Part shown: positions 1 to 31,663 of the stretch, in pieces
Position numbering within the stretch: the stretch's first letter is position 1
How the letters are laid out: the number at the start of each line of letters is the position of its first letter
NCBI GenBank assembly: GCA_903857795.1
Contig: CAIOGM010000101.1
Span: 1-45,987 of the forward strand
Origin: an uncultured Geobacter sp.
GTDB lineage: Bacteria > Desulfobacterota > Desulfuromonadia > Geobacterales > CAIOGM01
DNA length: 45,987 bases
Direction: 5' to 3'
The notes under the pieces: model-generated
Seen by the model: only the letters and a program-made list of their open reading frames with translations
Told to the model about the DNA's origin: nothing
Database searches by the model: none
Made by a program: the position numbers and the translations under genes

Positions 1-322
1 AGCCGGGGCGGGACAAGTCGTGCTTTGGGCATTCTCATTACCTCGTAGATTAAAATGAGTCAACGAGAAAATGCCGCCACCCTATAGGCCCGGTGTCAAG
101 TAAAAAATCGCCACCATAAGCTGTTTTTACTAATAATATTAGAAAGTTATGTTTTGCCTAGCCTCTGAAACTTACGGCTGTGATTCATACGGGACAAATC
201 GATGTCGCAGCTTTTCTTGGAATTTTATTAAGAAGCGAGATTTCAAAACAATCACGTTTTTAGATGGTTACAGCGTCAGCGGGAATAGCTGTCTAAGCCA
301 CGACTCTCCAAGGTTTCTTTCA
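1..322. other. AT-rich stretch without a recognisable gene
   Basis: No reading frame here looks like a protein I recognise. The frame at 149-370 runs through a terminator and has no family resemblance. The stretch is clearly richer in A and T than the genes that follow. Two short similar motifs, AAAATGCCGCCACC near 68-81 and AAAAATCGCCACC near 104-116, faintly resemble the internal repeats at IS21-type insertion sequence ends, but no transposase is present. It may be decayed accessory DNA or the 3' flank of a gene left of the window. Confidence 0.4.
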
Positions 323-351
323 CCGGGGGGCGCGTGCGCCCCCCGGTTTTT
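323..351 (+). terminator. Rho-independent terminator upstream of moaE
   Basis: A perfect GC-rich inverted repeat (323-333 against 336-346, very short loop) is followed by five T residues. It ends a transcript arriving from the left. Because it lies only 24 bases before the moaE start, with the ribosome binding site (GGAG near 364) in between, it could also act as an attenuator of the moaE-tup operon. Confidence 0.8.
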
Positions 352-374
352 AACAATCTCCGTGGAGTGACTCT

Positions 375-758
375 ATGCTCTTCATCATCACCGAACCGAT
401 CAACCCCGCCGACAGTTATCACCTCCTTGCAACCGTTACTTCCGGCTCGGTACTCCTGCATTATGCCGTGGTTAAGGGAGAGACCGGCGTCGGCAAGGCA
501 ACCATCTCAATCGACTACCGGTTCTCACCGGAGGCGCTTTCTGAGATGAACGGCATCGCTGCCGAGCTCAAGGAAAAGTGGCAGCTGGAGGATCTGCTGA
601 TAATCCGTCGGGAAGGATGTCTCTCCGTGGGGGAGATCATCTCCCTGGTGGCGGTCAGCGCCCCGGCCAGCGAGGACGCCTTCGAGGCGTGCCGCTATGG
701 CATCAGCCGCCTCAAGAAGATGTCCACCGTCACGAAAACCGAACGGTTCGACCTATGA
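375..758 (+). CDS. Divergent MoaE-like molybdopterin synthase subunit
   Basis: This 127-residue protein resembles the large (MoaE) subunit of molybdopterin synthase, which transfers sulfur from MoaD-thiocarboxylate to precursor Z. The best match is the C-terminal half: SVGEIISLVAVSAPASEDAF followed by EACRYGISRLKK, then a TVTKTE tail that aligns with the usual FWKRE lysine region. It is shorter than typical MoaE (about 150) and appears to lack the GxVRN segment and the HR pair of the classical active site, so activity is uncertain. A GGAG ribosome site precedes the ATG. Its stop overlaps the ATG at 758, just upstream of the preferred tupA start at 773. No moaD lies beside it. Confidence 0.72.
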   Translation: MLFIITEPINPADSYHLLATVTSGSVLLHYAVVKGETGVGKATISIDYRFSPEALSEMNGIAAELKEKWQLEDLLIIRREGCLSVGEIISLVAVSAPASEDAFEACRYGISRLKKMSTVTKTERFDL

Positions 759-7258: not shown

Positions 7259-8485
7259 TTAGACGGTGGTTGGGGAGGAGCGGAGGTAGCAGATGGTCGC
7301 CATGGTGATGGCCAGGGGGAGGAGCGCCACCAGCCCAGCCGTGGCCGGTACCCCCAGATGCCAGAGCTCCGACAGGCCGACCGCCTGAACTCCCAGGGCG
7401 TTACCGATCTGCATCCCCATGAGGTAGACCATGGAGCGGGGGAGGAACTGTGTCGGAGACGATGAGTTGACGATGGAGGCGTAGATGCTGACGCTGGCGA
7501 TCCCCATGCAGAGTCCCGAGGCGAAGATGGGGAGTCCGGCCAGGATGAAGAGCCCCGAGGCGAGGCAGTAGGCCAGCCCCCCCAGGGAGATCAGGAGCGC
7601 GGCAACGGCCCGGGAAGGGAGCTGCGCCAACCGCTCTTCCCGGCGGGCGGCCCAGACGCTCCCCAGGATCGCCCCCGCAGAAGCGAGGACGGTCATCCCC
7701 CCCACGAAGAGCGGGCTCTTTCCCGCCTTGGCCTGCAGGTAGTCGGAGAAGAGGTACTCCGAGCCGACGATGAGGATGGAGACTGCCACCTGCCAGGCGG
7801 TCATGACCCTGACTATCTTCCTCCCCTGCTCCTCCTCCCCTGGAACCGCCGCCGCTGCATCCATCACAACCGGGCGCCGCCGGAGCCCCAGCCAGGCAAA
7901 GAGAGCGGTGGCTCCTGCCAGGCCGGCGTTGAGCAGGAAGAAGTGCCGCCACCCACCGGGAGAGAACTGGGCGAAGAGCGCCCCGACGATGGGGCCTGCC
8001 ACGACCCCCAGAGCCGCCCCCACCTCCCCCCAGACCAGTGGCGCCGTGATCCGCCACCGGTGATAGACCGTGAGGGTCCAGAGCTGACCGGCAAAGGAGA
8101 GCGCCCCCCCTACCCCCATGATTCCTCGACCGGCAAAGAACCAGGCCGGCGTGGCGGCGCAGGAGCAGATAATGTTCCCCGCGGCGAACAGCGCCAGTCC
8201 CGTCAGGAAGAAGCCCATGGGGTTGAAGGAGCGGCTGACCCTGCGGGAGAGGAACAACAGCAGCAGCATAACCGCGAAGAGCGGGTAGAGGTAGCTGTTG
8301 ATGATGTAACTTGAGAGCTCCTCTCGCAGCCCCAGACTTTCGGTGATCCGGGCGTTGGCCACGATCACCGCGGTCACCTCCAGGGCGGCAAAGGCCTCCA
8401 CCAGGAAGAACCCCACGTCGTAGAGCCGGTCGGTGAGCGACTCTCTCCGTTGCGGAGGGAGCCCCTGATCGGGAGAGGGGGTCAT
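7259..8485 (-). CDS. MFS transporter, DHA-type
   Basis: This 408-residue membrane protein has roughly 12 hydrophobic segments. GRGIMGVGGAL and VVAGPIVGALF resemble the motifs of drug:proton antiporters. The substrate is unknown. The ATG at 8485 overlaps the stop of the upstream gene (ATGA) and has GGAGGAG before it; an open frame continues upstream but is a shadow of that gene. It is the last gene of a three-gene operon with a Cache sensor and an HdeD/peptidase-like protein, so it may export a product or stress compound sensed or processed by those partners. That link is inference. It converges on the siroheme reductase gene with only 13 bases between. Confidence 0.82.
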   Translation of the reverse strand: MTPSPDQGLPPQRRESLTDRLYDVGFFLVEAFAALEVTAVIVANARITESLGLREELSSYIINSYLYPLFAVMLLLLFLSRRVSRSFNPMGFFLTGLALFAAGNIICSCAATPAWFFAGRGIMGVGGALSFAGQLWTLTVYHRWRITAPLVWGEVGAALGVVAGPIVGALFAQFSPGGWRHFFLLNAGLAGATALFAWLGLRRRPVVMDAAAAVPGEEEQGRKIVRVMTAWQVAVSILIVGSEYLFSDYLQAKAGKSPLFVGGMTVLASAGAILGSVWAARREERLAQLPSRAVAALLISLGGLAYCLASGLFILAGLPIFASGLCMGIASVSIYASIVNSSSPTQFLPRSMVYLMGMQIGNALGVQAVGLSELWHLGVPATAGLVALLPLAITMATICYLRSSPTTV

Positions 8486-9756
8486 GACTCCTCCACCACC
8501 CGCTGGAGCGCCACGGCGTAATCCAGCATCATGCCGGGGGTCCAGACCATCTCCCGCGCCTTCCACCGGATGAAATGAGCCACCCAGAGGTCCTTGTTGG
8601 TCAGCAGGTAGAGGAGGGTCCGGAAACGGTGTCCGGTATCGAGGCTTCCCATGAGGGCCGCCTCCAGGGCCAACGCCACCGCCACGGAGCAGTTCCGGTT
8701 GGTGAAGTTATACTCCGTCTCCCGGCGGTAGAGGGCCCAGAAGGTCCGGAGCTGCCCTTCGTTGAAGTTGTGAAAGCGGATGGTGGCCGACGGCAGGACA
8801 TAACTCTTCATCTCCTCCTCGAAGGAGGGGTGAAAGAGCCCCGGCACCTCCTTGCTGCGCAGTACCCCCAGCACCTCGTCATTGGCCATTTCGAAGGCGA
8901 TGGGATCGTTGTCGCAGTGGCTGATGTAGATGTCGGGATTCATCTCCAGGGCGGAGTGCCCTACGGTGAACTTTCCCTCGGCGTTGCGGGCGGCCACGTA
9001 GCTGTTGATCAGGTTGCCGGATGGTTTCAGGTTGGCGACGGTGGCGGGGGTCCAGATATGCACCTGCAGGCCATCGTGCTCCTGGCCGCTCTCCGGGGGG
9101 GCCGCCGGTTCCGCCGCCAGGTACCGTTCCCGGAACCGGCCGGCCACATGGAAGTCGAGAAAGTAGCGGATCGCCATCTCCGACTCTTCCCCCTCCCTCC
9201 CCTGCAGGTAGCGCCCCAGCCGGAGCGCCGTCCGGAGGGTGGTCAGACCGATAAGGATCATCCCCCCCCCCAGGAAGAGCGGCACCACCCATTTAGCCGC
9301 CTCCTTCCAGTCGAGGAAGAGGAGCCCGCCGAAGAGCAGGTGGCCGACACCGCTGACCACGAACCACCCCCAGTTGGGGTAGCGGATGACCAGGGCGGAG
9401 AGGAGCTGGTAGAGTCCGTTGAGGAGCAGAGCGAGACCGAAGAGCCAAGGGACCGCGTTTTCCGACTGCTGGGGGAAATCGGCGATGGCGATCCCCAAGA
9501 CGATGAAGATTATCCCCTGAACGCCGAAGAACGAGGGCATTCCCCCGCCGCCGGCGAGAATGGAGAATGCCAGCTTGGCGAGCCCCATGACCACCATCAC
9601 CCACCCGAAGGCCTCCAGGGTGATCAGGGTGACCGTGTCCGAGGCGTCGATGACGATGAAGAGGCCGACGCCGGAGAGGAGAGTCCCCAGGAGGGTGAGG
9701 TACCGGCGGCTCCGGTTCAGGTTCCCCGGGCCGAGCAGCAGCATTGCAAGGTTCAT
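8482..9756 (-). CDS. HdeD-like membrane protein fused to a probable permuted papain-like domain
   Basis: This 424-residue protein has two parts. Residues 20-180 hold about six membrane segments with the short repeated hairpins of the HdeD/DUF308 acid-resistance family. Residues 190-424 form a soluble domain with TVGHSALEM (His267) and, later, YNFTNRNCSVAVAL (Cys356). A histidine before a cysteine, and an NC followed by a helix, match circularly permuted papain-like folds such as DUF4105, YiiX and LRAT-type proteins, rather than ordinary NlpC/P60 order. The domain could be a peptidase, amidase or acyltransferase; the catalytic assignment is inference. The gene overlaps both neighbours by four bases, so the three products are probably made in fixed ratio. 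Which side of the membrane carries the domain is not clear. Confidence 0.66.
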   Translation of the reverse strand: MNLAMLLLGPGNLNRSRRYLTLLGTLLSGVGLFIVIDASDTVTLITLEAFGWVMVVMGLAKLAFSILAGGGGMPSFFGVQGIIFIVLGIAIADFPQQSENAVPWLFGLALLLNGLYQLLSALVIRYPNWGWFVVSGVGHLLFGGLLFLDWKEAAKWVVPLFLGGGMILIGLTTLRTALRLGRYLQGREGEESEMAIRYFLDFHVAGRFRERYLAAEPAAPPESGQEHDGLQVHIWTPATVANLKPSGNLINSYVAARNAEGKFTVGHSALEMNPDIYISHCDNDPIAFEMANDEVLGVLRSKEVPGLFHPSFEEEMKSYVLPSATIRFHNFNEGQLRTFWALYRRETEYNFTNRNCSVAVALALEAALMGSLDTGHRFRTLLYLLTNKDLWVAHFIRWKAREMVWTPGMMLDYAVALQRVVEES

Positions 9757-10904
9757 GGTCTCTCCTCCACGGTAATGGTCGGGTCAACGAGGCTCTTCCC
9801 CTCAAGGGTGGTTCCCAGGAGATTCAGCGCCTCCTCCAACTCCCGCAACTCCAAGGCGTCACTCCCCATGGCGGTGGTGGAGGAGAAGTCACCCGAGGCG
9901 TACTGCCGAGCCTGTTGGGCCAACCGGCGCAGGGGGCGGGTGATGTTGTCATCAAAGGTCCGGTTGAGAAACCAGAGGGCTGCTCCTCCCAGGAAAAGGT
10001 AGAGGACGAGCATCCGCCGCCCCATGGCAGTCAAGGGGGCCAGCCGCTTGTCCAGGGGCCAGCTCACGATGAGGGACCACCCCTCTCCCCCCCGTTCGGC
10101 CGACAGGGAGCGGATGGGGGACTCCACCACCCACGAGTTCCGGTGGCTGACCGGATCAACCATCTTGACCGTGTCGACCCCTTGGTGCGCCATGACCGCA
10201 GCCATCTCCCCCAGCCCCTGCTTTCCGGGAAGATCCGCCAGGGCCTTCAGGGCCGGGTGGGCCAGGATCTTCCCCGCCTTGTTGACCAGGTAGACCGTGC
10301 CGTCTCCGCCCGGCTTGAGGAAATGGAGCCGTTTCAGGAGACTCTCCAGATCCAGGTCCACTGCAACCATCCCCACCACGCCCCCCCCGCGCCGGATGGG
10401 GGCCACGTAGGTGACCATCAGCGCTTGCCCCCCCTCTCCGTAGTACGGCCTGATCCATTTCCCCCGGTCGTTCTGCCGGGTCAGTTCGTACCAGTCATGT
10501 TTCAGGTAGTCATAGGGGAGGACGATCTCGCTCTCCACCCCATTGCGCCGGAAAACGTAGGGGGCGAAACGGTTCAGGGAGGTCAACTCCGGATGCAGGG
10601 CGACGGCAATCCCGTAGATGTCCGGTGACTCGTGAAGGGTCCGGCGCAGCAGCTCCCGGACGACGTCGGCTCTCAGCAGCGGGTCGCTCTCCAGGGCGCG
10701 GACGACCCCTTCGGCGATGAGCCGGGGGGGATCGAAGGTCAGATCCATTTCGGCGGTTTCCAGCCGGGCGATCTGCAGCGCCTCCTGTTTCATCTCCGCC
10801 ACCAGGGTCTTGCGCCCGGTCTGGTAACTCTCATAGAGGAGCAGGAGGAGCGGAAGCCCCACCAGGAAGGCGAGGAGGATCTGGATCCGTTTGCGGAGGC
10901 TCAT
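9753..10904 (-). CDS. Cache-HAMP membrane sensor without an output domain
   Basis: This 383-residue protein has a membrane segment (about 9-26), a periplasmic double-Cache region (about 30-290), a second membrane segment (about 297-313) and a HAMP linker (about 314-370), and then stops. The Cache signature is visible in HDWYELTRQ and RPYYGEGGQALMVTYVAPI near residues 136-170, as in sensors of small organic ligands. Homologous sensors usually continue into a kinase, phosphatase, GGDEF or chemotaxis domain; here none follows, and the frame ends overlapping the HdeD-like gene. AAGGAGAA precedes the start. It may signal to the downstream membrane partner by direct contact, which is inference. Confidence 0.82.
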   Translation of the reverse strand: MSLRKRIQILLAFLVGLPLLLLLYESYQTGRKTLVAEMKQEALQIARLETAEMDLTFDPPRLIAEGVVRALESDPLLRADVVRELLRRTLHESPDIYGIAVALHPELTSLNRFAPYVFRRNGVESEIVLPYDYLKHDWYELTRQNDRGKWIRPYYGEGGQALMVTYVAPIRRGGGVVGMVAVDLDLESLLKRLHFLKPGGDGTVYLVNKAGKILAHPALKALADLPGKQGLGEMAAVMAHQGVDTVKMVDPVSHRNSWVVESPIRSLSAERGGEGWSLIVSWPLDKRLAPLTAMGRRMLVLYLFLGGAALWFLNRTFDDNITRPLRRLAQQARQYASGDFSSTTAMGSDALELRELEEALNLLGTTLEGKSLVDPTITVEERP

Positions 10905-11068: not shown

Positions 11069-12331
11069 CTATTCGATCCGGATCGGAAGCGAGATGCTGC
11101 CGAAGACAGTCTGGTCAGCCGTTGCAGCCCGGTCGTTGTACCGGTTGAGATCATAGACCAGTGTAGAGTGAATGGTGTAGTTTCCCGGCTTCAACAGGGG
11201 CGACCAGGTGAGGGTCCGCTCTTCTCCGGCGCGGATGATCGGCTCGTGGGGGCCCTGGGCGTCGGCCTGCATGGCTGCCTTGGCATCCGGCCGTTTCTTG
11301 TCATCCTCCAGAAATGCCTTGTCATCGGGGCGGGATCCGTACCAGGGAGCAAACATCCAGTCGCTTCGGGCGGCAAGGATCCCCTGGGCGTCCCGCGCCT
11401 CTACCTGCAGATAGACGGCGCGCCGGTTGGAGCCGGTGGGGACCGAATGGCCCGCGCCGATGTTGATCAGATGGAGTTCGAACTTGGCGCTCCCCTGGTC
11501 AGGCTGGACGATCACCTGACTCAGGGCGTTCTGCAACCGCTGCAGCGACCGGCCGCCGGTCCAGAGATGCCGCGCCGCTACCCGGTCAGGGACGTCGTAC
11601 CCCTCGGCAAGGGAACGGACTGTCCGCGGCATATGACACTCCTGACAGTTCTGACTGCCGAGCCCCCTCTTCCAGAAATCGTCGCGCCACTCCAGGAAGG
11701 TCTGGGTCTGCTGTCCCACGTTCCGTTTTCCGAGGCTGTGGCAGTAGGCGCACATGACCGAGCTCCTCATCTTGACATCGGGAGCATTCTCGTGAGGCGC
11801 CCGCAGATTGTAGGGGCCACGGATCTTCCCTTCAGGGGTCAGGTGACAACTGGCGCAGGTGAGCCCTCCCGCCTCCTGGCTCTTGAGCCGCGGTTTCGGT
11901 TTGTAGGTCTCGCTGAGATCCATGTCCGGCAGGGCGAAGGCTTCGGGAAAGTGGCAGACATTGCATGATTTACCATCCGCCTCGCTCTCCCGGGCGTGCA
12001 GGGGAAACGGGTCGGTACCGGCCATGGCATGGGCGGTGGCCATGGATGAAATCGCGGCGGGAGGATGCCCGATATCGCGCCCTCCGGCTTCATCGCTCTG
12101 CAGGTCACGGGTGTGGATATCTGCGCCGAAGCCGTGGGCGAATTCACGATAAATGGCTTTGTGACACTCGCCGCAGAGTTCAGAAGGGGTGGCGGTTCCC
12201 TTGGGGAAGGTGACGGTGATGGTTGCCGGCACCGGCGCCTTCGGCGTGACCGCTCCGCTGACTGCAAGGGGAAAGAGCAGCAAGGCCAGGGGCAACAGGG
12301 GGACAATCGGCGAAAACTTCGATCTCTTCAT
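11069..12331 (-). CDS. Five-heme c-type cytochrome, periplasmic
   Basis: The 420-residue protein starts with a signal peptide (positive MKRSK, hydrophobic core, cleavage near SGA at 26). It contains five CxxCH heme-attachment motifs: CGECH, CNVCH, CASCH, CAYCH and CQECH, all in the first 240 residues. The C-terminal 170 residues have no heme motif and look beta-rich, with GAGHSVPTG, a GHxxPTG-type motif that I recall from other multiheme cytochromes. The likely role is electron transfer in the periplasm or outer membrane, as in metal- or anion-respiring bacteria; its partners are not adjacent. It stands alone between a terminator and its own extended -10 promoter. Confidence 0.9.
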   Translation of the reverse strand: MKRSKFSPIVPLLPLALLLFPLAVSGAVTPKAPVPATITVTFPKGTATPSELCGECHKAIYREFAHGFGADIHTRDLQSDEAGGRDIGHPPAAISSMATAHAMAGTDPFPLHARESEADGKSCNVCHFPEAFALPDMDLSETYKPKPRLKSQEAGGLTCASCHLTPEGKIRGPYNLRAPHENAPDVKMRSSVMCAYCHSLGKRNVGQQTQTFLEWRDDFWKRGLGSQNCQECHMPRTVRSLAEGYDVPDRVAARHLWTGGRSLQRLQNALSQVIVQPDQGSAKFELHLINIGAGHSVPTGSNRRAVYLQVEARDAQGILAARSDWMFAPWYGSRPDDKAFLEDDKKRPDAKAAMQADAQGPHEPIIRAGEERTLTWSPLLKPGNYTIHSTLVYDLNRYNDRAATADQTVFGSISLPIRIE

Positions 12332-23034: not shown

Positions 23035-26000
23035 CTACTTTATCGTAATATCCTCTATGGTCACCCCGCCGCTCTTGACAGTCATCTTCCCCTGTACCGT
23101 TGTCATCCCGCCGCTATTGGCAGTATGAGTGCCATTGTCGCCCCCCTTCAGGGTGATCCGCTTCCCCTGGTCAAGGAGAAGCTCCTCAACGAACGTGATC
23201 CCCCAGATCCTGATGATGGAACCGGACGTAGTCTCAGGCGCCTGGTAGGCGTCTCTAATTGCTCCGTAGTAAATCGGCGTTACCAGCACTGCGTGAGCAG
23301 AATCGAGGGGCAAATTTACCGTTGCCGTAACCGATGGGAGGGCCGGCATGATAAAGCTGCAGCTGCTGCCGCTGCAACTCCCCGTCCAGGTTCCCGGCAG
23401 GGAGTACTGGTCAGGCGTCGCCTGAAGAGTGACGGGATCACCGGCATAGAGCTGTGTCTGGCAGTTGGCGCCACAGACCAGACCCTGTTCAGTGAACGTG
23501 ACGCGTCCCCCACCGGTACCGGCCAAGTCGATGAAAAGGGTCCGCTGGGTACTGTCTATGTTGATAGTGATGCTTGCCGGCGTGATCTGTACATTGCCTG
23601 AACGGTCGGTGGATCGTGACCGGAGAGTATACTGACCGTTGACTGCCGGTAAGGTTACTATCCGCTGCCACAACCCGGCCCCGGAATTATAGGTCGCGCT
23701 CTGCCAGATACCGTTATTTACGGAAACTTCCACGAGTGCGACGCCGCTCCGATCATCTCCGGCAGTGACGCTGATCGTGGTGCTTGTCACGTGGAAGATG
23801 GAACCGCTGGCAGGTGTCGTGATGCTGCTGGTGGGAGCGACGTTATCGATGATGACGGTGCCGCTGGTAACCGGGCTCTGGACATTGCCGGAGCGGTCTG
23901 TCACCCTGCTCTTGATCGGGTAGGAACCATCGACCGGCAGTGGAGACCACGAGTATTGCCAGGTCGCAACAGCAGCGTTCAAAGGGGTAACGACCGCATC
24001 GTGCCATGTGGCGCCGTTGTCGGTGGAGAGCTCAACACGGGCGACCCCGCTCAGATTGTCGTTGGCTGTGCCGGTAATCAGACCGGTAGTTCCGCGATAG
24101 TAGCTCGGCGTCGTGACGGAGCCGACAGGAAGAGTGTTGTCTATCGTAATGGAAATGCTTGCCAGCGGGTTCTGGACGTTGGTCGCCAGGTCGGTGGCGC
24201 GGCTTTTGATGATGTAGACGCCGTCCGCCGGCAGCGGCGTCCAGGTGTACTGCCAGGTCGCCCAGGTTCCACCAGAGGTGTCGGTGGCATTATGCCAGGT
24301 GGCGCCGTTGTCCACAGATACCTCGACCAGCGTCACTCCGGTTCCGGGTATGGAGTCACCGGCTGTGCCGTTGATTGTCAGGCTCGTCCCACGAAGGAAC
24401 GCTCCATTCAGAGGAGAGGTGATGGCGCTGACCGGAGGAGTGAAGTCGAGGATGAAGAGTTCTCTGCCATAGAGCGGGTCGATGGCGCTGAAGAAGAGCG
24501 CCTCCTTGTCGATGCCGTTGGGAGGGGTGTTCGCCATGGTGAGACCTGCCGGCGCCGATCCGAAATCCCCCGGGAAGATATCCTTTACCTTTACGGTTCC
24601 CGCAGCGGTGCCGTCGCTGATCCAGGGTTCGGCACTATCATCGCGAGTCGGCAGGTAACTTTTGTCCATGAATGTGAACGCCAGGATGCCATGGACAGAC
24701 GTCAGTTCGGCTATGGAGGTATAGGTGTAATCGGCGGGAAGATCTTTGACCACCACCGTTCCTGCTGTGGTGCCATCGCTCTTCCAGAGCTGATCATGGG
24801 GCGGTGCGTTCCAGCTGTTCCATATTGAGAAATAGAGGGTGCCGTTGACATTGGTGAGATTCACCGGATGTGAACTTGCGCCCGCGGGATTGATGTCCTT
24901 CACCAGTACAGTGCCGGCAACGGTGCCGTCGCTTTTCCAGAGTTCATAGCCTAATGGGTTAGTCCACCCTTCAAAAAACAGGGTACTGCCGACTGCGGTG
25001 AGCTTGGTCGGATAGAGATTGTTTTTCAAAATTGTGGTGTTAACGCCGTCACTGACCCAGAGGGCATTGGTATTTGAGGCATCGTCCCCCTGAAAAAATA
25101 GTTTGCCATTCGCCAAAGTAAGATTTTCAACATTCTTGATGGTGCCGCTGACCCTGACGGTCCCGGCATCGGTGCCGTCGCTCTTCCAGAGTTGACCGTT
25201 GTTGAGAGTGTCGGCATTGGCGATGAAATAGAGAGTATTGCCAATTTTTACGAGATTTCTGACATCCGAACTGTTAGAACCGCTCTTGATCTCTTTCACC
25301 ATGACCGTGCCGAGCGCGGTGCCGTCACTCTTCCAGAGTTCATACCCGTGGGTGCTGTCCCACCCCCTGAAATAGAGGATGCCGTTAAGGTAGCAGACCA
25401 AGCGGGGATCATTGGTAGTCACGTTCGCTTTAACCAGAACCGCGGGGCTTGCCCCAACCCTTTTCCAGAGATCGTCGGAATTGGCGGCAAAGTACAACGT
25501 CCCCTCAGCATTGGCAAGCGGCACCGGATTTGAACCGGTCAAGCCTGGGACCATGCTGGTACCTGCGACTCTGCCGTTGGTCTGCCAGAGCTTGTTGCCG
25601 GTGTCATAATCGTCGGCGGCGAAATAGAGGGTGCCGTTCACATCGAGAGAAAATTGTGGATTTGAATCCTGGCTGCCGGGAGAGATGTTCTTGACCAGGA
25701 GTGTCCCGGCGTCAGTTCCATTGCTTTTCCAGAGTTGGGTGCCGGTGGCCGGTTCCGTTGCGGTAAAGAAGAGGGTGCCGTTCACATCGGTCATCAGGTC
25801 CGGGTGGCTATCAGCCGTTCCGAGAGCAATATCCTTCACCATTACGGTCCCGGCATTGGTGCCGTTACTCTTCCACAATTCGTACCCATGAACGGTGTCC
25901 CACCCCTCGAAGTAAAGTGTGCCGTTCACATTGGTGAACCGGTCCGGGTAGACCTCACTCTTCACCAGGACGGTGCCGGCGAGGGTGCCGTCGCTCTTCC

Positions 26001-26952
26001 AGAGGTCGCCACTGTTTCGGAAGAAGAGAACACCGTTCAAATTGAAGAGATTGGTCGGGTAAATGCCGCTCTTCACCACGGTCGGCGCCCCGGACACCAG
26101 TTTGACGAGGGACTGTCCATCAATGGGGTCATCGGCCGTAAAGAAGAGGGTGTTGTTGACTTCGGTGAGGTTGTCAGGTGTGGCGGCGTAGGGAAGCACA
26201 ACAGTGCCGCCGACTGTGCCATCGCTTGTCCAGAGGCGGTAACCGTTTACGCTGTCCCATCCATTGAAGTAGAGGGTGCCGTTAGCAGTGGTGAGCTGAG
26301 TCGGGTAAATGTCGACCTGCAACAAGATTGTGCCGGCGGTGGTCCCATCGCTTGTCCAGAGGTCGTTACCGTTGGTGAAATAGAGCCTGCCGGCCCCGGC
26401 AACAACCATATTATCGAGAGTGCCGATCCCTGAGCTGACTGCAACAGTTCCGGCAGTGGTGCCGTCTGTTTTCCAGAGACCGTCACTATAACCGCTGAAG
26501 TAGAGGGAACCGTTGAAGCTGACGAAACGTTCCGGATCGACATCCGCACTCACTTCCACGGTAGTGGCAGCGGTCCCGCCGCTCTTCCAGAGCGACCAGC
26601 CATTGGGACCATAGGCCTCGAAGTAGACGGAACCGTTCCAGTAGGTGAGGTAATCAGGGTCATGATATGAACTGTCCGACCCGGGGAGGATGTCCTTCAC
26701 CATGGCCGTACCGGCGGCGGTGCCGTCACTTTTCCAGAGTTCGTTTCCATGCGCCTGATCGTAAGCGGTGAAGAAGAGGGTGTTCCCGGCTGCCGCCAGG
26801 TTGCGGATGTTGGAATTATTCTTGATACGGGTGTTAATATCCTTGATCAGGACCGGTACCGATGCTCCCAGGGCGGTGGTTGCGCCCCCCCCGCAGAGGC
26901 AGGTGATACAAAGTGACATCAGCAGAAACCGGATACAGAGACGATTAGTCAT
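23035..26952 (-). CDS. Large secreted ELWxSDGT-repeat protein with Ig-like domains
   Basis: This 1305-residue protein starts with a signal peptide (hydrophobic core, ALGA cleavage near residue 30). Roughly the first 830 residues consist of about 17 units of some 40-55 residues, each with LYF...G.ELWKSDGT.AGT.LVKD; three units are degenerate. This is the ELWxxDGT/AGT repeat family, probably a beta-propeller-like surface module. Three Ig-like units of about 100 residues follow, each with VEVSVDNGATWH or a variant. A C-terminal region has GGRVTFTEQGLVCGANCQTQL and ends GKMTVKSGGVTIEDITIK. An adhesion or surface-structural role is plausible but unproven. I prefer the ATG at 26952 (GGAG upstream) over 27015, since only it places the signal peptide at the N-terminus. 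Confidence 0.87.
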   Translation of the reverse strand: MTNRLCIRFLLMSLCITCLCGGGATTALGASVPVLIKDINTRIKNNSNIRNLAAAGNTLFFTAYDQAHGNELWKSDGTAAGTAMVKDILPGSDSSYHDPDYLTYWNGSVYFEAYGPNGWSLWKSGGTAATTVEVSADVDPERFVSFNGSLYFSGYSDGLWKTDGTTAGTVAVSSGIGTLDNMVVAGAGRLYFTNGNDLWTSDGTTAGTILLQVDIYPTQLTTANGTLYFNGWDSVNGYRLWTSDGTVGGTVVLPYAATPDNLTEVNNTLFFTADDPIDGQSLVKLVSGAPTVVKSGIYPTNLFNLNGVLFFRNSGDLWKSDGTLAGTVLVKSEVYPDRFTNVNGTLYFEGWDTVHGYELWKSNGTNAGTVMVKDIALGTADSHPDLMTDVNGTLFFTATEPATGTQLWKSNGTDAGTLLVKNISPGSQDSNPQFSLDVNGTLYFAADDYDTGNKLWQTNGRVAGTSMVPGLTGSNPVPLANAEGTLYFAANSDDLWKRVGASPAVLVKANVTTNDPRLVCYLNGILYFRGWDSTHGYELWKSDGTALGTVMVKEIKSGSNSSDVRNLVKIGNTLYFIANADTLNNGQLWKSDGTDAGTVRVSGTIKNVENLTLANGKLFFQGDDASNTNALWVSDGVNTTILKNNLYPTKLTAVGSTLFFEGWTNPLGYELWKSDGTVAGTVLVKDINPAGASSHPVNLTNVNGTLYFSIWNSWNAPPHDQLWKSDGTTAGTVVVKDLPADYTYTSIAELTSVHGILAFTFMDKSYLPTRDDSAEPWISDGTAAGTVKVKDIFPGDFGSAPAGLTMANTPPNGIDKEALFFSAIDPLYGRELFILDFTPPVSAITSPLNGAFLRGTSLTINGTAGDSIPGTGVTLVEVSVDNGATWHNATDTSGGTWATWQYTWTPLPADGVYIIKSRATDLATNVQNPLASISITIDNTLPVGSVTTPSYYRGTTGLITGTANDNLSGVARVELSTDNGATWHDAVVTPLNAAVATWQYSWSPLPVDGSYPIKSRVTDRSGNVQSPVTSGTVIIDNVAPTSSITTPASGSIFHVTSTTISVTAGDDRSGVALVEVSVNNGIWQSATYNSGAGLWQRIVTLPAVNGQYTLRSRSTDRSGNVQITPASITINIDSTQRTLFIDLAGTGGGRVTFTEQGLVCGANCQTQLYAGDPVTLQATPDQYSLPGTWTGSCSGSSCSFIMPALPSVTATVNLPLDSAHAVLVTPIYYGAIRDAYQAPETTSGSIIRIWGITFVEELLLDQGKRITLKGGDNGTHTANSGGMTTVQGKMTVKSGGVTIEDITIK

Positions 26953-27166
26953 TGTGGGGCTCCTTTTTAAAACGTTTTCCAACGCTCTATCATAGAAGTC
27001 ATTCTTTTGCAACACTGTTTTATCAGTTTGCTCCCACTCTGTTATCCCACTCTGGTGGTCCCCCCATTGTGATGGGAGTTTACATCCGTGGCTGAAAGGC
27101 TTCGCCCGCCAATCAGATTACTCCTTCCCCTTCGATTTCTGTTTTCTTCAGTTCCGAGAGGGCTTC

Positions 27167-29956: not shown

Positions 29957-31663
29957 TCAGAGCCGCTCTATCTCCTGTCTCAGCTGCTGCTCCCGGTGGA
30001 GCGCGGCGTAACTCCCTCCCCTGGCCAGCAGTTCCGCAGGACTCCCCTCTTCCTTGATCCGCCCCTCTTCAAGCAGCACGATCCGGTCGCACCCCTGAAC
30101 CGCCGAGAGGCGGTGGGAGACGATGATGACGGTTCGAGTGCCGTAATAGTTCTCCAGCCCGGCGAGGATCGCCTCCTCGGTGGCGGCATCCACCGAGGAG
30201 AGGGGGTCGTCCAGGATCAGGATCGGCGGCTGGGCGAGGAGCGCCCGGGCGATGGCGGTCCGCTGCTTCTGCCCCCCCGACAGGGTGACCCCCCGTTCCC
30301 CCACCTGGGTGGCGTACCCGTCGGGGAAGGAGTCGATCTCCCGGGTTAACTGGGCCAGTTCCGCCGCGACGGCTACGGCGTCATCGTCGGCCCCCTCCCT
30401 GCCGCAGGCGATGTTCTCTCTGATGGAGCGGGAGAAGAGAAACCCCTCCTGGGGGACGAAGCCGATGGCCCCCCTCAGGTCGGAGAGCCTCATCCGGTTG
30501 ATATCGATGCCGTCGATGAAGAGGGTTCCCTCCGGCACGGGGAAGAGCCGGGCGACGAGCCGGGCGAGGGTGGACTTGCCGCTCCCCACCGGGCCGACGA
30601 TCCCCGTCTTCGTCCCCGCAGGGAGATGGAGGGTGATGTCGTGGAGGACCGGACCGTTATCACCGTAGCCGAAGGTCAACTTATCTAGCCGGATCTCTCC
30701 CCGGACCGGGGCTGTCAGGGGCAGATCCCCCTCCCCGATGACCGCCCTGGCGTCCAGCACTCCGTTGAGACGGCTCATGGAGGCCGCGCCCCGCTGGATC
30801 AGGTTGAGAATCCACCCCATCATGACGGTGGGCCAGACGAGCATGGCCAGATAGCCGTTGAAGGCGACAAAATCTCCCAGGGTGATGCTCTTATGGATGA
30901 CCATCCGTCCCCCCAGGAAGAGGACGATGAGGGTCCCGGCCCCGGTGGCGCTCCCCATGATCGGCAGGACGAACCCCCGAAGCCGCGCCAGCTTCATGCT
31001 GAGTCGCCGGTACTGTTCGTTGGCGTTGCGAAAGGCGGCGCTCTCGGCCTCCTCCCGACAGTACCCCCGGATGACGGCGGCGGCGGTGACGTTCTCCTGA
31101 ATCCTGCTGGAGAGGGCCGCCAGCTGCTCCTGGACCAAAAGGGAGTGGCGAAAGATCCGGTGACTGACCCGTTTGACCACGTACATCATGATGGGAAAGG
31201 GAATGACGGCCCAGAGGGTGAGGAGGGGGTTGATCCCCACCATGATAACGAGGCCGGCCACGTAGAGGATGAAGGTATTGATGCAGCTCAATACCCCGAA
31301 CCCCAGGAGCATCCTGACGTTGGTGAGGTCGTTGGAGAACCGGGAGAGGATGTCGCCGGTTCGTTCCCGGGAGAAGTAGGGGAGATCCAGGGAGAGAAGC
31401 TTCCCGTAGAGCTCCTCCCTGATCCGGAACTCGATGGTGCGGCCGGCGTTGAGCATGGTGGTGCGCGAGAAGATCCGGATGACACCGTGGCAGAGGGCCG
31501 CCAGGATGATGAGCGCCGCGTAAAACCCCGGCGACCTCCCGGGGAGGGGGTGCTGGAAACTCTGGATCGCCAGCTTCAGCAGCCAGGGGATAAGCAGAGC
31601 AAAGCCGTTGGTAAGGAGCAGCAGGAGCCCCCCCAGGAGGTAGGCGTTGCGGCACCCCATCAT
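29957..31663 (-). CDS. ABC exporter half-transporter (MsbA/MdlA-like)
   Basis: The 568-residue protein has an N-terminal six-helix membrane domain and a C-terminal ATPase with Walker A GPVGSGKSTL, Q-loop PQEGFLF, signature LSGGQKQR, Walker B ILILDDP and SHRLSA, the usual exporter motifs. FRIREELYGKLLSLDLPYFS with RTGDILSRFSND marks the coupling region. The ATG at 31663 starts almost at the first membrane helix; the frame is open upstream into truD (SDLTRLFGA precedes) but holds no canonical start codon, so the N-terminus is slightly short. The substrate could be lipid, peptide or drug; no partner half-transporter is adjacent. It follows truD by 17 bases. Confidence 0.88.
   Translation of the reverse strand: MMGCRNAYLLGGLLLLLTNGFALLIPWLLKLAIQSFQHPLPGRSPGFYAALIILAALCHGVIRIFSRTTMLNAGRTIEFRIREELYGKLLSLDLPYFSRERTGDILSRFSNDLTNVRMLLGFGVLSCINTFILYVAGLVIMVGINPLLTLWAVIPFPIMMYVVKRVSHRIFRHSLLVQEQLAALSSRIQENVTAAAVIRGYCREEAESAAFRNANEQYRRLSMKLARLRGFVLPIMGSATGAGTLIVLFLGGRMVIHKSITLGDFVAFNGYLAMLVWPTVMMGWILNLIQRGAASMSRLNGVLDARAVIGEGDLPLTAPVRGEIRLDKLTFGYGDNGPVLHDITLHLPAGTKTGIVGPVGSGKSTLARLVARLFPVPEGTLFIDGIDINRMRLSDLRGAIGFVPQEGFLFSRSIRENIACGREGADDDAVAVAAELAQLTREIDSFPDGYATQVGERGVTLSGGQKQRTAIARALLAQPPILILDDPLSSVDAATEEAILAGLENYYGTRTVIIVSHRLSAVQGCDRIVLLEEGRIKEEGSPAELLARGGSYAALHREQQLRQEIERL

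Follow-up and report, generated by a model that had tools for sequence, protein, structure and literature searches.

Permuted NlpC/P60 enzymes combine a catalytic histidine and cysteine in that order of sequence. The DUF4105 proteins, among them the Bacteroides lipoprotein N-acyltransferase Lnb, belong to this kind, and Tox-Act1, the sister clade of DUF4105, is a phospholipase (PMC12994826). DUF4105 and RTE1 are both classed as papain-like (PMC10318531). A candidate for an enzyme of this kind is encoded in the 45,987-nucleotide stretch of contig CAIOGM010000101.1 analysed here (the window), which comes from a Geobacter-like bacterium. Three adjoining genes, all on the minus strand, specify a dCache-HAMP sensor, a fusion of an HdeD/DUF308 membrane domain with a soluble Cys-His domain, and a transporter of the major facilitator superfamily (MFS). 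The parts are all of known families, and their combination looks like an undescribed system; no description of the fusion family or of the three-gene set was found in the open-access papers searched. The interpretation tentatively preferred is that the sensor gates an acyl hydrolase or transferase of permuted-papain-like type, anchored in the membrane, and that the transporter moves the product of this enzyme; there is a reasonable chance that the trio represents a signalling system of a new type.

The trio is a real unit, beyond what chance would assemble. Orthologues of the sensor, fusion, and MFS protein occur in an identical set of six of the 141 genomes of the order (G000, G002, G003, G068, G103, G104). 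The remaining genomes hold no trio orthologues at the cut-offs used, aside from weak partial relatives, namely two matches to the HdeD half of the fusion (G022, G055) and one 30% relative of the sensor (G122). An additional metagenome-assembled genome provides a seventh locus (L002), and the genes are contiguous in all seven, with identities to the window proteins of 64-76% for the sensor, 70-84% for the fusion, and 70-78% for the transporter. The 4-base overlap of sensor and fusion is kept in 7/7 loci, and at the fusion/MFS junction the related loci L003, L115, and L116 overlap by 4 bases and L004 by a single base. The flanks vary. The window and L002 have no flanking gene in common with the other loci, a sulfite/nitrite reductase gene that adjoins the trio in the window lies on a separate contig in G002 and G003, and all three genes are absent from the congener G001. 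Because they co-occur and are contiguous in differing surroundings, the three genes behave as a cassette. A defence role was considered and rejected, as no trio protein matched any of the PADLOC models of anti-phage defence.

An earlier note on this DNA, made from the letters and open reading frames, had described most of this layout, and its descriptive claims hold. The three genes do overlap by exactly four bases at each junction, with ATGA at both, and the coordinates check out; the sensor stops after its HAMP domain; an HdeD-like membrane domain is joined to a soluble domain with His267 before Cys356; and the MFS protein is exporter-like. The check that it proposed, joint occurrence in genomes, bears out the grouping.

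The sensor has no output domain. Its HAMP domain ends at residue 368 of 383, and among the 26 HAMP proteins of the genome with a measurable tail it alone lacks an output domain after HAMP, with 15 residues left where the other 25 have at least 130. Pfam matches are to MCP-like_PDC_1 (5e-21), dCache_1 (2e-16), and HAMP (2e-8), with Cache and HAMP above cut-off, and hydropathy places the transmembrane segments at residues 7-25 and 299-317. In the other trio loci the length is 380-383 residues where the start is unambiguous, so the missing output is unusual within the genome and conserved across the seven loci. The nearest sensor relative outside the trio in the order (L082, 30%) combines dCache and HAMP with a domain at the C-terminal end that looks like a phosphatase of the SpoIIE/PP2C type. 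The window sensor thus lacks an output that its relative retains. L082 has the layout of the SiaA-type Cache-HAMP-PP2C sensor phosphatases, and in NCBIfam the window sensor itself matches SiaA weakly; it shares the periplasmic Cache and the HAMP domain with that type but not the phosphatase output.

The membrane half of the fusion exceeds the DUF308 cut-off (37 bits against 25) and has six hydrophobic segments before the enzyme domain. In these helices and in an N-terminus facing inward it is like the HdeD/DUF308 acid-resistance membrane proteins, whereas an ordinary HdeD has about 200 residues and no enzyme domain. HdeD-only relatives are also what the rest of the phylum offers; in a sample of 395 genomes, the remaining fusion matches span the HdeD half only. 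Mean counts of lysine plus arginine over 26 fusion sequences alternate along the chain (N-terminus 2.96, loops one to five 0.38, 1.08, 0.08, 1.69, and 0.46, C-terminal side 3.12). By the positive-inside rule, this charge bias sets both the N-terminus and the enzyme domain in the cytoplasm, on the same side as the HAMP domain of the sensor, and the enzyme domain should accordingly be predicted to face the cytoplasm.

Full-length fusions are not confined to this lineage. Plasmid searches returned homologues with 27-33% identity from alpha-, beta-, and gammaproteobacteria, with Agrobacterium, Roseomonas, Chelatococcus, Ochrobactrum, Phyllobacterium, Methylobacterium, Burkholderia, Caballeronia, Pandoraea, Cupriavidus, Pantoea, Cedecea, Providencia, and E. 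coli as hosts. The family therefore spans Proteobacteria, E. coli plasmids included, and Geobacter-like bacteria. In E. coli it occurs three times among 5,426 complete genomes, always on a plasmid and under the label 'HdeD family acid-resistance protein'; database labels across the family are only 'HdeD family', 'protease', 'MFS', or 'TctB'. None of the 12 pattern matches in viral contigs is a relative.

The soluble half carries an invariant His/Cys pair. In the alignment of 26 full-length fusion homologues, Gly266, His267, Leu270, Glu271, Tyr277, Ser279, Trp340, Tyr349, Asn350, Asn355, Cys356, and Ser357 are unchanged in every member, and a GHxxLE motif precedes an RNCS motif. Convincing weak matches of this domain are to papain-like families only. 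Lnb_N/DUF4105 is matched, with E values no higher than 0.01, by 14 of the 26 members (9e-5 at best) and RTE1 by three (E 0.014-0.13), in both cases over the Cys motif. A profile comparison with 38 DUF4105 domains aligns Cys356 to their Cys (P 0.0016, probability 16%), and one with six such domains gives a probability of 2.6%. Because the AlphaFold2 runs are of low confidence, the putative permuted-papain fold is read from sequence. As proposed in the earlier note, it gains from the motif order and the weak papain-like matches; the structural check, made with five sequences, gave a predicted local distance difference test score (pLDDT) below 50 across the soluble half. That low confidence, together with profile searches of the PDB in which neither the fusion nor the soluble domain found a useful relative, would suit an unrelated alpha/beta domain with a conserved His and Cys, for example one that binds a metal or a cofactor. 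Such a domain is very unlikely, since both recurring Pfam matches are papain-like and cover the Cys motif, and the low-confidence model of the soluble domain has the His in a strand followed by the Cys at the start of a helix.

Among described enzymes, the fusion most resembles Lnb/DUF4105 (PF13387), with which it shares the His-then-Cys order, a YN-x-x-T-x-NC(S/T) motif, a hydrophobic Cys helix, and membrane anchoring. It differs in falling under the family cut-off and in placing the enzyme domain after six DUF308 helices, and no Lnb transmembrane domain was detected in it. Moreover, the Lnb domain is periplasmic, whereas the enzyme domain of the fusion is predicted to be cytoplasmic; this is a defining difference, and the fusion is not classed as Lnb. 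The Tox-Act1/TseH phospholipase effectors are of the same permuted NlpC/P60 superfamily and have a catalytic His and Cys pair (PMC12994826), but they are secreted toxins, whereas the fusion is integral to the inner membrane and no secretion or immunity gene adjoins it. Two genuine members of Lnb_N/DUF4105 are also encoded in the genome of the window, with no linkage to the trio (G000:C123:61682-62131 and 31140-31556; L063, L064). On Cedecea and Ochrobactrum plasmids, a genuine, separate DUF4105 gene adjoins the fusion (L019:6687-7310; L027:3559-4557), which suggests that the two work in one pathway there.

The partners of the fusion recur in other bacteria with different families. A MASE1 protein without an output domain lies directly upstream of the fusion on Cedecea, Providencia, and two Pantoea plasmids; a PAS domain is present in the Providencia and both Pantoea proteins, and none was found in that of Cedecea. 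On Agrobacterium plasmids a substrate-binding protein is encoded upstream (L021:4143-5351; L066:3134-4351; L067:3227-4276) and an MFS gene follows; the L021 protein has a weak Lig_chan match inserted in its binding domain, as in bacterial glutamate-receptor-like proteins. An MFS gene also adjoins the fusion in Roseomonas, Phyllobacterium, Chelatococcus, and Ochrobactrum. A single ancestral MFS partner was rejected, as phmmer found no match between the window transporter and the alphaproteobacterial ones beside the fusion, which are of a different MFS subfamily, and no relative of it was found on the plasmids. Upstream of the E. coli fusion, a remnant of a broken sensor gene was looked for and none was found. 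This survey across hosts makes the association with a sensor or an MFS transporter recurrent but not universal, with differing families.

The enterobacterial parallel bears on whether sensor and enzyme touch at all. The three proteins might be co-expressed without contact, sharing an operon and a setting, while the sensor serves another partner or acts as a decoy and the fusion works constitutively. Many proteobacterial fusion loci do lack an adjoining sensor, and the coupling of sensor to enzyme is read from gene neighbourhood, yet this account is unlikely given the perfect co-occurrence in six of 141 genomes, the conserved sensor/fusion overlap, and the second, unrelated output-less sensor that occupies the same position in enterobacteria. 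A wider scheme would be modular signalling, in which output-less sensors of several kinds (Cache-HAMP, MASE1 with or without PAS, perhaps also one resembling a glutamate receptor) are interchangeable and dock on a cytoplasmic Cys-His lipid enzyme that HdeD anchors; a signal from outside would then directly alter membrane lipids or yield an exported acylated product, with neither phosphorylation nor a second messenger. This wider scheme is doubtful.

The transporter has an MFS_1 match (Pfam, 2e-16) and an exporter-type, motif C-like segment, GVVAGPIVGALF, read from its sequence. NCBIfam matches are to MdtD-type, 2_A_01_02, and general multidrug models, none above cut-off. In the LplT-Aas system, lysophospholipids are flipped and re-acylated, and an MFS protein coupled to a cytoplasm-facing acyl enzyme would follow the same logic. 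The window transporter has no LplT family match in NCBIfam, however, so its identification as an LplT-type lipid flippase was rejected; further differences are that the fusion enzyme is not a PlsC-type acyltransferase and that a sensor is added. The exporter-type motif also suits a detoxification or resistance operon, in which a Cys-His amidase, peptidase, or acyl-modifier would alter a toxic amphiphile or peptide, the MFS protein (elsewhere a small multidrug resistance (SMR) protein) would expel it, and the sensor would tune the response. SMR/Qac-type genes do lie near the fusion on Providencia, E. coli, and Cedecea plasmids, but in many cases on the other strand. Lipids are the substrates of the nearest enzyme relatives whose chemistry has been established, no phenotype of resistance is known, and such a role is somewhat unlikely.

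In five of the seven loci (L001, L003, L004, L115, L116) the MFS gene is followed directly by a gene for a DUF6268 beta-barrel with a signal peptide, above cut-off (for example L003:8496-9428 and L004:8534-9481), with a 4-base overlap in L004. The window has no such gene after its MFS gene; a 70% homologue lies elsewhere in the genome (G000:C135:199-1128; L126), where it adjoins an adenylylsulfate-kinase-like gene. Each of the six genomes of the order that carry the trio also encodes the barrel, as do three that lack the trio; the barrel may carry transport on as far as the outer membrane.

In the preferred sensor-gated scheme, the dCache-HAMP sensor, having lost its output domain, would read a periplasmic ligand, and movement of its helices would pass to the HdeD-anchored enzyme through contacts in and just below the membrane. 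The enzyme, facing the cytoplasm, would be a hydrolase or acyltransferase with a Cys-His pair, DUF4105-like and thus of the permuted NlpC/P60 kind. Going by its relatives, it probably acts on a membrane lipid or on some other amphiphile that is acylated. Transport of the product, or of a by-product resembling a lysolipid, across the inner membrane would then fall to the MFS protein, and in most relatives the DUF6268 barrel could serve the outer one. The earlier note had proposed the same coupling and export from gene order; the coupling stays conjectural and now draws also on co-occurrence, the rarity of an output-less HAMP protein, and the enterobacterial MASE1 parallel. That interpretation, in part supported, had not covered the DUF6268 barrel, the family outside the lineage, or the cytoplasmic side of the enzyme.

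Several results weigh against this scheme. The window fusion scores under the Lnb_N cut-off (Pfam, 17.2 against 22.2 bits, E 0.004), the DUF4105 profile comparison spans the Cys motif only, and AlphaFold2 with five sequences reached a pLDDT of 45 for the full fusion and 38 for the soluble domain alone. The fusion also stands without an adjoining sensor or MFS gene in Burkholderiales and in several Pantoea copies, so these partners are not obligatory everywhere. If the sensor does gate the enzyme, the trio would constitute a direct pathway from ligand to membrane enzyme, and the long-unexplained HdeD domain would find its role, that of an anchor competent in signalling. With an invariant Cys356 and seven conserved operons, the idea can be tested.

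Table 1. Positions of the trio genes, their domains, and their junctions in the window (residue numbers refer to the encoded protein; TM, transmembrane segment).
Feature	Position	Strand	Size or composition	Basis
Sensor gene	10904-9753	-	383 aa	
Sensor architecture		-	TM, periplasmic dCache (MCP-like_PDC_1), TM, HAMP (320-368), 15 residues, stop	Pfam and hydropathy
Sensor stop/fusion start, ATGA overlap	9753-9756	-	4 bases	
Fusion gene (HdeD and soluble enzyme domain)	9756-8482	-	424 aa	
HdeD/DUF308 six-TM domain of fusion	residues about 1-180	-		Pfam DUF308, 4e-9
Soluble domain of fusion, putatively permuted-papain-like	8491-9081, residues about 226-422	-		alignments, profile comparison
His267 codon	8956-8958	-		invariant
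Cys356 codon	8689-8691	-		invariant
Fusion stop/MFS start, ATGA overlap	8482-8485	-	4 bases	
MFS transporter gene	8485-7259	-	408 aa counted from ATG	

The MFS gene has an alternative in-frame GTG at 8566, which would give 435 residues. Opposite the fusion and sensor genes run long antisense frames (8575-10002 and 9744-10628, plus strand; 475 and 294 residues), which most likely result from the codon usage that goes with high G+C. Upstream of the trio is a gene for a multihaem c-type cytochrome (11069-12331, minus strand), which has a second copy, at 68%, on C92 of the same genome and is present in only two of the four genomes of the genus. Farther along the window, 23035-27015 (minus strand) encodes a protein of 1326 residues that has bacterial Ig-like domains and probably lies at the cell surface.

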